Positions 1 through 27,247 of a stretch of 33,284 nucleotides of DNA are shown piece after piece. The DNA comes from an uncultured Campylobacterales bacterium (lineage in GTDB: Bacteria; Campylobacterota; Campylobacteria; Campylobacterales; Sulfurimonadaceae): assembly GCA_903885085.1 (NCBI GenBank), contig CAISHH010000130.1, positions 1 through 33,284 of the forward strand, written 5' to 3'. The position numbers and the translations under genes are program-made. The notes beneath the pieces were generated by a model, which saw nothing but the letters and a program-made list of their open reading frames with translations, searched no databases and was not told where the DNA came from. Numbering within the stretch: the first letter of the stretch is position 1; each line of letters begins with the position of its first letter.

Positions 1-3000
1 ATTAATATCAAGTTTTGTCTTAACCTCTTTTGTCGTCTCTTGCGTTGCTTGTACTGGAGCAAATATGATTCGAGTTGGATCTATTTTTTGTTTGACTACT
101 AGATACTCAGAGATCACTTTTGCTCTTGAAGCAGCAAGCGTTTTTAACTCATCTTCACTCACGGGCATAAAACTACTGTCCTCAACTGCGAGTTTTGCCG
201 TATACTCTTCATTGAACTCTTTAATATCTTTATACTGCTCTTTAAATTTATTTTTTATATTGTTTAAATTATCACGTGTTGAGTTTTTAAGAAAGATCCC
301 CTCAAGCATCTCTGCATTTAAAGCATTTCTTCGCTCTTCCTCATTTGTCGCACCACTTTTTTTCACGATCAAGTCGATCAATTTTTGTGTTTGAATCGCT
401 TTTTTATCTGTATTTGTATCATAAGTAACTCCAACACTCAGAGATATACTGAGACGTTTTTGCAAAGCTTTTGTAATGTTATCCAGTTTTTCAATCTCAG
501 GAGGGAGTAAAACTGTCTTACCCGGCTCAAAATCTATCGATTGTAAGTTATCCCCGTTAAATCCTAGCATTGACCCTAAAAGTCTAAAAGGGGCGGTAAC
601 GGCTTTTGTGACTAAATTACCAAGAACTTTCCAAACCATCGCTCCATATCTAAAATCAGGATTATTAAGATCGCCTTTGATAGGCAGATCGATATCTATA
701 ACGCCATCACTATCTTCTAAAAGAGCAACTGCGAGGCGAAGCGGCCAAACAGTAATACTTGGATCTTTAACGGTTTCACCAAGCTTAATATGCTTAATAA
801 CAACGCTATTTGCAGCATCAAGTTTGCCATCATTTATTTTATATCCGAGCTTAACAAAAAGTTTGCCATCATCTATTTTATACCCTGCAAATGTTGCCGA
901 GTAGGCTGTAAGGTTATTAAGAGCTAAATTACTAAAATTCACATTCATATCTGTATATTTTTTAGGATTTGCCGCATTGATGGAACCTTGGATTTTTGCA
1001 GAACCATATTGGTCTACAACACCGTCAAGATCGATATTACTTGTCTCATTTGGTTGAGAAGAAACCCCATAAATTTTTCCATTAAGATCATGGATGTGTG
1101 TTTTAAATACATAAAAAAGAGATTGATCCATAAAATCTGCGCTCCCATTTTTCACTGTAATATCCATAATCTTTATCGGAAACGGTTCTGATTTTTTGGC
1201 TGTTTGTTTTGAGGCCATAGATGTGTTGTGATCGACTTTTGCGGGTTTCATGAGTTTCGCAAAGTTGATCGTTTTATTTTGATCAATCATTGTGTTTGCG
1301 TAGAGTGAATCTATAAGGACTTTATCAATATAAAGCCTGTTTGGTGCATAATCAAAAGTATATCCAAGATCAAGTTTATTAAATGATGTTATTAGTGTAT
1401 GATCTCTGCTATCTTTCAATATTATTTTTTCAAGTCCAAAGTTCCCCTTCGCGTTCATTTTCGGCGATTTTGAAACGCTGTTAAAACTCTCTTTACCATT
1501 GACACTTAAAGCACCATCTTCTATGCTTAGATAGGTGTAAGGGTTGATATATGGATTTAAAAACTTTAATCCAAACGTGTTTATAGCAAACTCTCCTTCT
1601 TGTCTGAGTGGCTCACGCTGAAGTTTTCCAGCCAAGCTAATCGAGCCTGTTTGATTGATATGTGTACGGATATCATACTTAAACCAGCTTTTTGCATCCA
1701 AGTCAAAATCGCTTACATGTAAGAGGAAATTGTTAAGCTTTATCGTTTGATTTGGCTTGATGTTTGTATCTGTCAAAGCAAGAGCCGAGCTGTTTACATC
1801 AAAGTTTTTGAGTAGAAATTTTGGCTTACTTGTTTTGGATGTTGCCTCAGCTGCGCTAAAACTCTCCGAGCCACTCAAACTTAAAGCTCCATCAGCTTTG
1901 ATGGGAGCAGTATATTTTGCAATATATGGGTTTAAAAATTTGGATGTAAGGTTTGTGATGGAAAATTCACCCTCTTGTTTGAGCGGCTTTAACTGTACTT
2001 TACCACTTGCTCCAAGAGCTGTCTCATGGTTAAGATCAGTGTGAAAATCGTAACTTAACCAACCATCTTTTCCAAGGACGAGATCGCTTACATGTAAAGA
2101 TACATTTTCAAGAGCGATAAGCTGTGATGGCGTAAGCATCGTGTCGTTAAGAATTATTTTCGAACTCTCTAAAGCGAGTTTATCGAGAGTGACCTTCCAC
2201 GGTTTTGTTTCATTTTTATCTTCTGCTTCAGGCTTATCTGAAGTTTTATTGACTTTTATATACTCTTGCCAATCGATTTTATTGCCTGCGAGTCTTTGCG
2301 CTTTAAGATCCACTCCGTTAATCGTAACAGCTTCTACATGCACCTCTTGTTGTAAGGGTAAAGCGCTAATTTTATTCACTTGTAATGTTGCGATACTTAA
2401 AATATCTGATGGTTTATTTTTAGCTTTTATTCTCAACCCTGAAAGACTCACTGAACTATTATCGATTTTTAGATTTTTGAGCTCATCGAGATCGACATGA
2501 TATTGGACGTAAGTGCTAAGTTTGCCATCTGCGATTTCGATATTGAGCATATCTTTTATATATTTCCATCCAGAGTAGAGCGTAACTGATTTTAAATCTA
2601 GAGTTCCATCAACAACAAAGGGAGAGATAGATTTTATACTGTTTACAAGCTCAAAGCTACCTCCATTATTAAAATCAAATTGCAACACAGAAGAGCCTAC
2701 TTTTGTACTCTTCTTTCCAGTATCAATATTTTTGATCTTAAATTCTAGATCATTGAGAGCCATTTTATATGGAGAGGTTTTTGTATAATCTTCATAAGCG
2801 ATTGTTCCATCTGTCACTGCCAAATCATCAAGAATGAAACGAAAATCTTTTTTTGAAGCAGTTTTGTTTTGATCTTTTGAAGGTTTTGCAATGTTGAGAA
2901 GATTAAGCTTTTTATCTTTTGCATATACAACATCCAAAAAAGGCTCTTGAAGTTCTACACTTTTTACATGTATCGTTTTATCTAAAAGAGCCAATACTTG

Positions 3001-21185: not shown

Positions 21186-22204
21186 AGATTTTATCTATAA
21201 GTGCAACCGTAGAGAGATATACACTTTCTATATTCGGACTTGTATGGTCGGGATTAAAAACACAGTCATGTTTTCCGTCCCGCGGCCAATATCTAAAAGC
21301 TCCTGTCATGAAAAATATCCCTACTGTCGGTGTTTCAACTGCAATCGCCATATTTCTAAGACCTGTATCATTTGCAATAACACATTTGCTGTTAGATAAA
21401 AACTGCATTGCTTCATCTAAAGGCATCGCTTTTTGAAGAAGAACATTTGTTCTTTCTTTCAATGATTCATATAAATCTAAAAACTTTTCACTTGCATTTA
21501 CGCCCTGTAAGATTATATGTTTGTCACTTGGATATCTATCAGAAAGTTTTTCAATCAAACTTTTAAACTTCTCCTGCTCCCAACATTTAAAGTTTGCAGA
21601 TGCACCTGCGAAATAAACAATCTGATTGACAACATTTTTCGGATACTTCTCTTCAAATCCATATCTTAAAGGAGCATTGTTTTTATAGCCAAGCATATTT
21701 AACATATGCTGTACAGAATCGGCTTCTAAGACATATTCACTTCTTAATGTAGCCATATCATAAAAGTATCTTCTTATTGATCTATACGGATACCCCACTT
21801 TTAATTTAGCCCCTGAAAGAAACGTGATCCATAATGATAAAGTACTGTCAGTAAGATCAAAAATAATATCTTGTTGTTTTAATGTTTTTGCTTGTCTTAT
21901 TCTGTAAAAAAGTCCCGTTTTTTTTACTTTTGTCTTTAGGACAAACCTTATCCATTACATGAATTTCATCGACGAGGTCTTGCGGCAGACCGTACACTGC
22001 ACTGCTGTTGACGCTAAGAGTGATCTTTGCATTAGGGAAAAATTCCCTCATACCTATCAAAAAAGGACGAATATTCATAAAGTCACCAATTGCCGCATGT
22101 CGTATTACTGCAATATTTTTTATATCTTCTGGATTTTTGTCTTTTAAATATACTTTGGCTTTTTTTGAAGCAAATGCACTCACTGGTCTAAAGTTTAATC
22201 TCAT
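21175..22204 (-). pseudogene. Glycosyltransferase family 9 (heptosyltransferase-like), frame-disrupted at an A8/T8 tract
   Basis: N-terminal ORF 21857-22204 (IAVIRHAAIGDFMNIRPFL) and C-terminal ORF 21175-21798 (NDTGLRNMAIAVETPTVGIFF). Removing one base from T8 at 21918-21925 gives one frame: ...CPKDKSKKTGLFYRIRQAKTLKQQDIIFDLTDSTLSLWITFLSGAKLKVGYPYRS...; 1030-1=1029 nt. Confidence 0.88.
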
Positions 22205-23814: not shown

Positions 23815-25213
23815 ATGCTCTTCAACTCCTACTCATTCATCTTCGCATTTTTACCACTAACCTTTTTTATCTACTTTTATCTCAACTCAAAAAGATTGAC
23901 GGTCGCGGCTAAAGGGTTTTTAGTCTTTGCTTCACTCTTTTTTTATAGTTATTGGAATATTGTTTATCTTCCTCTTATCTTAGGGAGTATTTTATTTAAC
24001 TTCATGGTGGGAAGTGGGTTAAGTAAAGAGAGCAAATTTTCTAAGAAGTCTGTTTTAATATTTGGTATTGTTGCCAATGTTGCTTTGCTTGGATATTTTA
24101 AATATAGTGACTTTTTTATAACAAATTTCAATCTCGCGATGGGCTTATACCCAAAGGGCACTTCGCATGTAGAGCTTTTACATCTCTTGCTTCCTCTAGG
24201 TATCTCATTTTTTACTTTCACACAAATAGCATTTTTAGTAGATGCCTACAAAGGAAAAGTAAAAGAGTATGACTTTTTAAACTATGCACTGTTTGTGACT
24301 TTCTTTCCTCACCTTCTTGCCGGACCTATCATCCATCATGCCGATATGATGCCGCAGTTTGCTTCACGCTGGAATATGGCTATTCGTTATAGAAATGTAG
24401 CAGCCGGTCTGTTTTTATTTTCCATAGGGCTTTTTAAAAAGGTAGTGATTGCTGATACCTTTGCCACTTGGGCAAATAATGGATTTGATGTCGCAACCTC
24501 ACTTAATCTCATCGAAGCATGGGCAACAAGTCTAAGCTATACCTTTCAGCTCTACTTTGACTTCTCGGGCTATACCGAATATGGCAATCGGTGTGAGTTT
24601 GATGTTAAACATCAAGCTTCCTGCAAACTTTAACTCGCCCTATAAAGCAAAAGATATTCAAGACTTTTGGAGAAGATGGCATATTACTCTTTCTAAGTTT
24701 TTAAGAGATTATATTTATATACCTCTTGGAGGTAATCGAGTCTCTAGTTATCGTAACTCTTTTAATCTTTTTAGTGTTTTTCTCATCGGTGGGCTTTGGC
24801 ATGGAGCGAGTTGGATGTTTGTTCTTTGGGGAGCCTTGCATGGTGTGGCAATGGTGATACACCGCATCTGGAAAGATATGGGCTTTAAGATGAACAGTTT
24901 ATTAGCATGGTTTATTACTTTTAACTTCATTAACATCACTTGGGTCTTCTTTAGAGCTAAGCATTGGGATGATGCTTTGAAGGTTTTGGGTGGGATGAGT
25001 TCATTTGGAAGTTTTTCATTTTCTTTATTCAACAACGATATTTATTGGCAACTCATAGTTATGCTTATTTTAGTTGTGACGCTTAAAAACTCAATGCAAA
25101 AACTGGAAGGCTTTAAACTTAACACGCTACATTTAGTCTTCAGCATAAGTATACTTTTAATAGCACTATCAGTTCAAAATAGTGTATCTGAATTTTTGTA
25201 TTTTAATTTTTAG
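23815..25213 (+). pseudogene. MBOAT family O-acyltransferase (AlgI-like), frame-disrupted
   Basis: N-terminal ORF 23815-24633 and C-terminal ORF 24557-25213. One extra A at 24578/24579 breaks FDFSGYT(D)MAIGVSLMLNIKLPANFNSPYKAKDIQDFWRRWHITLS; 1399-1=1398 nt in frame. Confidence 0.9.
24145..24172 (+). repeat. 28-bp extended element, copy A (in MBOAT gene)
   Basis: TTATA-CCCAAAGGGCACTTCGCA-TGTAG; encodes YPKGTSHV. Confidence 0.85.
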
Positions 25214-25220
25214 GATTCTT

Positions 25221-26267
25221 ATGACAGCAAAAAGATATCTCCAAATATTCTTCACTATATTACTACTCTTTATACTCTTTCATTTTACGATATGGCATTT
25301 GTATACAAAACAATTATTTCAAAATAATGATAATACTCATGTTGGTGATTTAGGAAGAATGTCATATCATAATGACTCTTTAATTTTTAAAGAAAATAGA
25401 GTAAATTTGCCAAAAAAACATATTGACTTTACAAAAATTGAAAAAGTAGATGTTATCACAATTGGAGACTCGTTTTCTAATGGAGGAGCGGGAGGATTAA
25501 ATCCATTTTACCAAGACTATATTGCTTCATTTTATAATTTTAAAGTATTAAATTTAGAACCTTCAAAGGAAGGATGGGTAGAATCAATCTTGCGTTTAAA
25601 TAGCAGTGGAATTTTAGATAAACTACATCCAAAAGTGATTATTTTAGAATCTATAGAAAGGGGTTGTGTTGACCGATTGTCAAAAAAAATCGATTGGAAT
25701 CTCACCGCAGATGAAAAAACAGTTATTCAAGATATGAAAAAAAGATATCCAACTCAAAAAGAAAAAACATCATTTATAAACAATTTGAACTATAACGCTT
25801 TGCTTTACAATCTTTTATACAAATTTAACGACCATGCCTACTCTTCCAAAGTCTATATCGCTCCAATCTCAAAACAGCTCTTTTCATCTCAAAATCCTAA
25901 GGAACTACTTTTTTATTTTGAAGATATTAAGAATCTGAAAAAATCAAACCAAAAATCGATCGCCTTACTCAATGAAAATCTTAATCATCTCCAAGAGATA
26001 TTAAAGAAGAAAAACATACACCTATATTTTATGCCAACACCCGATAAATATGATATTTATTCCAAATACATCATCAATAATCAATATGAGCAAAGCCACT
26101 TCTTTGAATTGCTACGTGGTCTAAAAAAAGAGTATACCTTCATAGATACAAAAGCTATTATAAAACAACTTATAGACGACAATGAAAAAGATGTTTACTA
26201 TCCTGATGATACACACTGGAGCTATAAAGCGAGTGCAAAAATATTTGAAGAGACTAAATTTAACTAA
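25221..26267 (+). CDS. SGNH/AlgX-AlgJ-like O-acetyltransferase partner
   Basis: N-terminal TM; VDVITIGDSFSNGG (GDS) and YYPDDTHWSYKAS; directly downstream of MBOAT. Probable start MTAKRYLQ at 25221. Confidence 0.8.
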   Translation: MTAKRYLQIFFTILLLFILFHFTIWHLYTKQLFQNNDNTHVGDLGRMSYHNDSLIFKENRVNLPKKHIDFTKIEKVDVITIGDSFSNGGAGGLNPFYQDYIASFYNFKVLNLEPSKEGWVESILRLNSSGILDKLHPKVIILESIERGCVDRLSKKIDWNLTADEKTVIQDMKKRYPTQKEKTSFINNLNYNALLYNLLYKFNDHAYSSKVYIAPISKQLFSSQNPKELLFYFEDIKNLKKSNQKSIALLNENLNHLQEILKKKNIHLYFMPTPDKYDIYSKYIINNQYEQSHFFELLRGLKKEYTFIDTKAIIKQLIDDNEKDVYYPDDTHWSYKASAKIFEETKFN

Positions 26268-27247
26268 AGCAGCTGAATTGTTTTAGCTACTTCCTCAAAC
26301 ATCTCACTTCTTTTCCTCTCATCATGAGGGATCATATAGTGTTTTTGCATTGATTCGTCGCTAATACTTTTCCAGCGTTTTCCACTCGCAAAAAGTGAGT
26401 CTCCAAAGAAGGTCATCGTTGGAGTTCCGACAAGTGCGGCTAAATGATACGTGCCTGTAGAGGTTGAGATGAAGAGTTTGAAGTTGCTTATAAGTTTTGC
26501 AAAATTGACAAGCCCATCTTTTGAGATATAAAACACGACATCCGCGTTTTGAAGTGCATTTTTGCAATATTCATAAAGAGTTTGCTCATCAGGTCCAAAG
26601 GTCATCACGACTTGATAACTGTTTACATGCGAAGTACCCTTTGGGTGTAAGGCATTTTTTACCAACTCGATATACTCATCAATACTCCAGTTAGCATCAC
26701 TTGAACCGCCAAATCCCGGGTGAAAAGCGATCACCTCTTTTTTGATGCTATTCTCTTTGCAAAAACTCTCATACATCTCTTGCGCATCATCAAACTTTAA
26801 AAGCGGCTTTTCAAAATGCAAATCCATCTTAGGAAATAACACTTTTGCAAGCTCTAAATTGTACTCAAACTCCGTCATCTTCACTTCACTGCGTCTTTGC
26901 TTGACTCTCTTGGTGTAAAAGATTTGGGCTATCTTTGTAGCCGGTGCTATGCGCTTTGAAATGCCCGCTAAAAACTGCGCAATTGCTACACGGGTGTTTG
27001 AAAAGAGGGTAAGTGAAACATCTGCTTTGGCTTTGCGAAGCTTTTGTGCAAGCTCCCACACCGAGCTCTTGCCATCATCGACAATCACCTCATCGATAAA
27101 ATCACACGCACGAGCCAAACTCTCATTTAATGGTGCCACGCAGACTATGATGTGGTTACGCGGATCATACTGTTTTAAAACCTTACATGTAGGCAATGCT
27201 GTGATAAAATCTCCGAGTTTATCGGTACGAACAACAAGAATGTTCAA
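26264..27247 (-). CDS. Glycosyltransferase family 9 (ADP-heptose:LPS heptosyltransferase-like)
   Basis: MNILVVRTDKLGDFITALPTCKVLK...IAFHPGFGGSSDANW...FISTSTGTYHLAALVGTPTMTFFG. Confidence 0.92.
   Translation of the reverse strand: MNILVVRTDKLGDFITALPTCKVLKQYDPRNHIIVCVAPLNESLARACDFIDEVIVDDGKSSVWELAQKLRKAKADVSLTLFSNTRVAIAQFLAGISKRIAPATKIAQIFYTKRVKQRRSEVKMTEFEYNLELAKVLFPKMDLHFEKPLLKFDDAQEMYESFCKENSIKKEVIAFHPGFGGSSDANWSIDEYIELVKNALHPKGTSHVNSYQVVMTFGPDEQTLYEYCKNALQNADVVFYISKDGLVNFAKLISNFKLFISTSTGTYHLAALVGTPTMTFFGDSLFASGKRWKSISDESMQKHYMIPHDERKRSEMFEEVAKTIQLL
26623..26650 (-). repeat. 28-bp extended element, copy B (in GT9 gene)
   Basis: Minus strand TTACA-CCCAAAGGGTACTTCGCA-TGTAA; encodes HPKGTSHV. 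Confidence 0.88.

Follow-up and report, generated by a model that had tools for sequence, protein, structure and literature searches.

Element copies and host genes

The window, that is, the whole stretch of 33,284 nucleotides that was analysed (contig C130 of the window genome G000; 2.34 Mb, 172 contigs), contains two copies of a short repeat, one within an MBOAT (AlgI-type) gene and the other within a GT9 heptosyltransferase-like gene (Table 1). Both copies (24150-24171, + strand; 26624-26645, - strand) match CCCAAAGGGYACTTCGCATGTA with 0 mismatches, and by chance no match to this sequence is expected in the window. The two near-identical elements, in frame and on opposite strands, were found as described in an initial annotation. 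The segment reported there as a 28-bp insertion is indeed absent from relatives; its size was corrected to 18 bp, the actual unit being placed inside a pre-existing 12-bp palindrome (arms CTTA...CATGTAA).

Table 1. Positions of the repeat copies, their host genes and the palindrome sites in the window.
Feature	Position	Strand	Remarks
Host gene 1: MBOAT (AlgI-type), PF03062	23815-25213	+	split by 1-bp frameshift near 24578
30-mer copy 1	24144-24173	+	MBOAT gene, in-frame peptide LYPKGTSHVE
Palindrome arms, copy 1	CTTA 24144-24147; CATGTAGA 24166-24173	+	split by 18-bp module
18-bp inserted module, copy 1, TACCCAAAGGGCACTTCG	24148-24165	+	
Host gene 2: GT9 heptosyltransferase-like, PF01075	26264-27247	-	
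30-mer copy 2, CTTACACCCAAAGGGTACTTCGCATGTAAA	26622-26651	-	GT9 gene, in-frame peptide LHPKGTSHVN
18-bp inserted module, copy 2, CACCCAAAGGGTACTTCG	26630-26647	-	relatives exactly 18 bp shorter
Palindrome TTACATGTAA, empty site	1713-1722		window count
Palindrome TTACATGTAA	2088-2097		window count
Palindrome TTACATGTAA	6017-6026		window count
Palindrome TTACATGTAA	9694-9703		window count
Palindrome TTACATGTAA	12050-12059		G007 has CTCTACGTGATTGA instead, same length
Palindrome TTACATGTAA	15094-15103		window count
Palindrome TTACATGTAA	23350-23359		in frame as LHV, GT2-like gene
Palindrome TTACATGTAA	23521-23530		window count
Palindrome TTACATGTAA	27639-27648		window count
Palindrome TTACATGTAA	28008-28017		window count

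At the MBOAT site, a paralogue in the relative G001 (L120) has TCTACATGTAGA and is exactly 18 bp shorter (window: GGCTTA-TACCCAAAGGGCACTTCG-CATGTAGAGC; G001 paralogue: GGTCTA------CATGTAGAAC). At the GT9 site, exactly 18 bp are missing from the relatives G002, G003, G004, G006 and G007, and in the protein alignment six residues are absent at the insert position in all six orthologues. An empty palindrome is present at this site in G004 (CTACATGTAAAT), G005 has TTTACATGTAAA, and in both of these genomes the palindrome is read as HVN. In a structure prediction of the GT9 protein (seven sequences, mean pLDDT 75, local pLDDT at the insert about 61), residues 201-210 are placed between helix 189-200 and strand 211-217; for the GT9 insert, the loop location that had been suggested is thus borne out by the predicted model.

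Three further features of the window were recorded in comparison with G001. The MBOAT gene is put out of frame by a one-base difference at 24578, while its orthologue in G001, with the same insert, is open across 466 codons; the frameshift is either an assembly error or a real mutation. A run of 8 T at 21918 (7 T in G001) splits a GT9-like gene and is a possible homopolymer error or case of phase variation. Between 16904 and 25233, identity to G001 amounts to 95%, versus 78-86% in the flanking regions, and to judge from these identities the segment is probably a surface-polysaccharide block that was recently exchanged.

The palindrome and its distribution

In G000, 222 copies of the 12-bp palindrome CTTACATGTAAG, which has TACATGTA as its core, were counted; the reversed control gave 0. 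Composition statistics were based on 0.45-Mb samples; with both strands of such a sample counted, 94 occurrences were obtained versus 0.04 expected, and the 10-mer form TTACATGTAA was found 10 times in the window versus 0.05 expected. Abundance far above the genome-wide expectation is one mark of a HIP. Bias of deviations to the outermost bases is another: in G001, all 71 single-mismatch sites deviate in the outer two positions of either end and none (0/71) in the 8-bp core. About 80% of the palindrome sites fall within genes, solely in the two stop-free frames.

Between G000 and G001, 20 of 25 palindrome sites are conserved, compared with 27% of background 10-mers. Where the palindrome is absent from a relative, the counterpart shows 0 bp length difference in 34 of 36 comparisons, so the palindrome overwrites existing sequence and is not inserted. 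Among 80 relatives sampled, four congeners have 337, 140, 129 and 113 copies and three others 7-10; two other genera (g3 and g6) have 165-343, with almost no 30-mers, and the count is 0 in the remaining genera of the family. A wider sample of the order revealed a second family (f20) and scattered low counts elsewhere, including 1-16 in some g2 species. Species of f20 have anywhere between 0 and 193 copies, so the palindrome must be gained or lost quickly.

As with HIP1 in cyanobacteria, the behaviour of the palindrome is that of a recognised motif under maintenance. A search of an open literature library yielded no description of the palindrome from bacteria. Its density, its invariant core with soft edges, its gain by substitution and its mostly in-gene position also resemble those of uptake sequences. 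It nevertheless appears unlikely that transformation spreads the palindrome as a DNA-uptake-type signal, with the 18-bp module hitch-hiking as a by-product: uptake alone leaves the precise 18-bp insertion unexplained, and the palindrome is perfect, unlike, as far as we know, the known uptake sequences.

The 18-bp module and the 30-mer family

From an alignment of copies, the repeat is a 30-nt unit, CTTA-YACCCNNNGGGYACTTYR-CATGTAAG, the ends of which are the two parts of the palindrome CTTACATGTAAG. The 18-bp module YACCCNNNGGGYACTTYR sits within the palindrome at CTTA^CATGTAAG, a single fixed point as in SDR5-type repeats, and is flanked by a 2-bp repeat (CA...CA). A search of G000 (both strands, up to 3 mismatches) gave 46 places, with 0 for the reversed control, in keeping with the initial view of a small dispersed element tolerated inside unrelated coding sequences. 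Of the two outcomes named in the initial annotation as refuting its reading, neither was encountered: further copies exist in the genome, and the segment is missing from orthologues. G001 has 40 copies and G002 has 11, all three genomes being at least 99% complete. The genomes compared are for the most part drafts, with the relatives G003 and G006 each consisting of one contig.

Across the loci read, 97 distinct strong copies were collected (matrix control 0), and the 30-mer is conserved at the nucleotide level across unrelated genes and intergenic sites. A search for the inserted core alone, with no condition set on the arms, gave 85 places, about 80 of which lay between palindrome arms (72 by both of the strict arm tests and the rest by eye). 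The exact 30-mer pattern had 0 matches in viral contigs. To our knowledge, the 18-bp insert is among the smallest mobile-looking elements.

Two unusual sites were noted. At L133, a compound site, both module orientations lie between palindromes and form a longer inverted repeat. In G026, which belongs to another genus, the 30-mer at L173:17511 is itself extended by an insertion of about 15 bp, which suggests nested modules.

REP/REPIN elements are likewise short, palindromic and dispersed, the present repeat is partly intergenic-enriched, and some Y1_Tnp genes occur in the family. It is, however, very improbable that the repeat is REP/REPIN-like and owes its movement to a RAYT/Y1 transposase. 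No PF01797 match (no RAYT) was obtained in G000, G001 and G002, which carry 46, 40 and 11 copies, and a RAYT/Y1 transposase was rejected as the mover on account of its absence from these three carriers. Moreover, about two thirds of the copies lie inside genes, unlike REPs, and the module is inserted inside another repeat.

Gain into existing palindromes

When sites with a 30-mer were compared with a relative without it, the difference was exactly 18 bp in 42 of 62 non-redundant comparisons, and a recognisable 12-mer was left in 15 of these 42; in 12 further comparisons, beyond the 62, the 30-mer was present in both genomes. At the intergenic locus L010, about 20 bp separate two palindromes. 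In G006 and G002 neither is filled; the left one is filled in G007 and the right one in G000 and G001. Because of the empty/empty state in G006 and G002, gain into pre-existing sites is polarised at this locus. The GT9 insert and the right insert of L010 are common to G000 and G001 and absent in G007. As G007 is nearer to G000 than G001 is, in both the GT9 and the L010 regions, the history must also include either a precise loss from G007 or insertion repeated in G000 and G001.

The same absences from G007, which suggest precise losses, and the CA...CA repeat on either side of the module would suit the converse history, in which the 30-mer is ancestral and the 12-mers are scars of an 18-bp deletion, for example by CA/CA slippage. 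This history is rated as quite improbable. Palindromes arise without length change (34 of 36 comparisons, as above), so most of them were never 30-mers, and a deletion-scar origin for all 12-mers is contradicted; in addition, g3 and g6 are rich in palindromes and almost devoid of 30-mers, and neither L010 site is filled in the outgroups G006 and G002. The module has a precise target, is found in either orientation, has multiplied and has been gained into empty sites. A two-layer anatomy with insertion of a dispersed 18-bp module is therefore held to be highly probable, and sister species in which one and the same site is filled in some and empty in others constitute test material for the mechanism.

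Coding consequences

A total of 100 copies (97 strong) was divided into 64 in genes and 36 intergenic ones. The in-gene copies occur in both the sense and the antisense orientation, with two phases for either; they thus use four of the six reading contexts and encode four peptides (LHPKGTSHV, LTPKGHFACK, LHAKCPLGV and LTCEVPFGCK). The stop-containing phase was seen in a single case, at the margin of a possibly spurious ORF call (L002). Length variants (29 or 31 nt) account for 6 of the 36 intergenic copies versus 0 of the 64 in genes (Fisher p=0.0016), and all in-gene copies keep the 18-bp module length. Since 18 is divisible by three and, of the six contexts, four are open, in-frame additions of six residues are survivable, and non-homologous proteins are thereby provided with a route for the repeated acquisition of six identical residues.

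The PKGTSHV peptide to which the initial annotation had drawn attention is gained in both window genes; it is one of the four peptides, the choice depending on orientation and frame. Its sense frame is the commonest within genes (33 of 64), as would be expected of a convergent protein motif under selection. Such selection is nonetheless so improbable as to be negligible: the other peptides are encoded as well, 22 copies are antisense and 36 intergenic, and the DNA itself is conserved across unrelated genes and intergenic sites. Selection of PKGTSHV as a peptide was accordingly rejected on the intergenic and antisense copies. The module is not peptide-selected and is tolerated where the frame stays unbroken.

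Comparison with known systems

As far as we know, a close parallel to the insertion of a module into a palindrome has been described only in cyanobacteria. The source for SDR5 inserted in HIP1 is reportedly Elhai et al. 2008, Genome Res 18:1484. According to a later account, SDR5 is inserted between nucleotides 3 and 4 of HIP1 and the deviations of HIP1 are biased to the outer bases (PMC4390886). Both cases combine a very small dispersed repeat at a fixed, near-centre point of an iterated palindrome with palindrome deviations concentrated at the outer bases. They differ in that the sequences are unrelated, the phylum is another and the module here has 18 bp; HIP1 (GCGATCGC) is an 8-bp, GC-rich palindrome (GATC/CGATCG), whereas the present one is a 12-bp, AT-rich palindrome with a CATG core. 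By analogy, the Campylobacterales case looks like an independent HIP/SDR pair. The module was classed as analogous to SDR5 as described, and not as a member; no convincing compensatory changes were found among copies in which most stem positions hardly vary, whereas some SDR families have a conserved secondary structure supported by such changes. The SDR5/HIP1 arrangement might have been peculiar to cyanobacteria, and its recurrence in an unrelated palindrome and module suggests a shared mechanism.

The alternative HIPs of cyanobacteria share with the present palindrome a sporadic, clade-by-clade gain to hundreds of copies and a suspected methyltransferase link (PMC4390886). The difference lies in the taxon, here Campylobacterales, and in the methyltransferase link, which is here a correlation with exceptions. 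Rickettsia palindromic elements, with which the repeat had initially been compared, are also repeats within ORFs that add in-frame peptides; the comparison fails in size and target, in that those elements have roughly 100-150 bp and no known fixed palindromic target, and the insert here is far smaller (18 bp) and has one. Mitochondrial double-hairpin elements are similar as tiny, hairpin-prone and apparently mobile modules; they are organellar and are not known to have a fixed genomic palindrome as target.

Proposed mechanism

In the first of two layers, the iterated palindrome CTTACATGTAAG would be maintained by a DNA-recognising process, possibly linked to methylation of the central CATG. 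In the second, the 18-bp small dispersed repeat YACCCNNNGGGYACTTYR has entered existing palindromes at a precise point and in either orientation, thereby creating the 30-mer, and would spread without a self-encoded protein. A break or gap at a palindrome might be repaired by use of a 30-mer from elsewhere, with DNA, or an RNA or ssDNA hairpin copy of the 30-mer, serving as the template and the palindrome arms as short homology. Repair-templated spread of the module is the mechanism we prefer; it is proposed tentatively and is, on balance, somewhat doubtful. We consider it somewhat less probable than its contrary that an 18-nt selfish, protein-free module homes into a genome-wide palindrome written in place, which would give two phyla independent HIP/SDR pairs and would imply a general bacterial process of templated repair by which short palindromes are overwritten and filled.

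No mobilising enzyme or intermediate was seen, and no enzyme is known to be encoded by the module. When the bottom strand of the consensus was folded as RNA, -12.5 kcal/mol was obtained (z -3.9); variants fold less well, and position 10 of the 30-mer varies freely, which contradicts the inner hairpin favoured by folding. Among 91 copies no convincing covariation was detected, most stem positions hardly varying. A two-hairpin cloverleaf, compatible with the sequence, was rejected as the selected fold for want of covariation; as no definite fold is supported, an RNA intermediate is simply possible.

With regard to the maintenance of the palindrome, a D12-type adenine methylase is present in 8 of 9 palindrome-rich genomes versus 15 of 71 others (Fisher p=1e-4, kinship ignored). 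Some of its homologues in phage records bear the name of the H. pylori ulcer-associated methylase, which we take to be one and the same enzyme as hpyIM. The sequence recognised by hpyIM is CATG (PMC4450513). Because the D12-type methylase is absent from the palindrome-bearing G002 and present in many genomes that lack the palindrome, it is treated as a candidate lead only. In G026, the candidate methylase gene (L256) encodes a protein with several LHV peptides, LHV being what the palindrome encodes when read in one of its frames.
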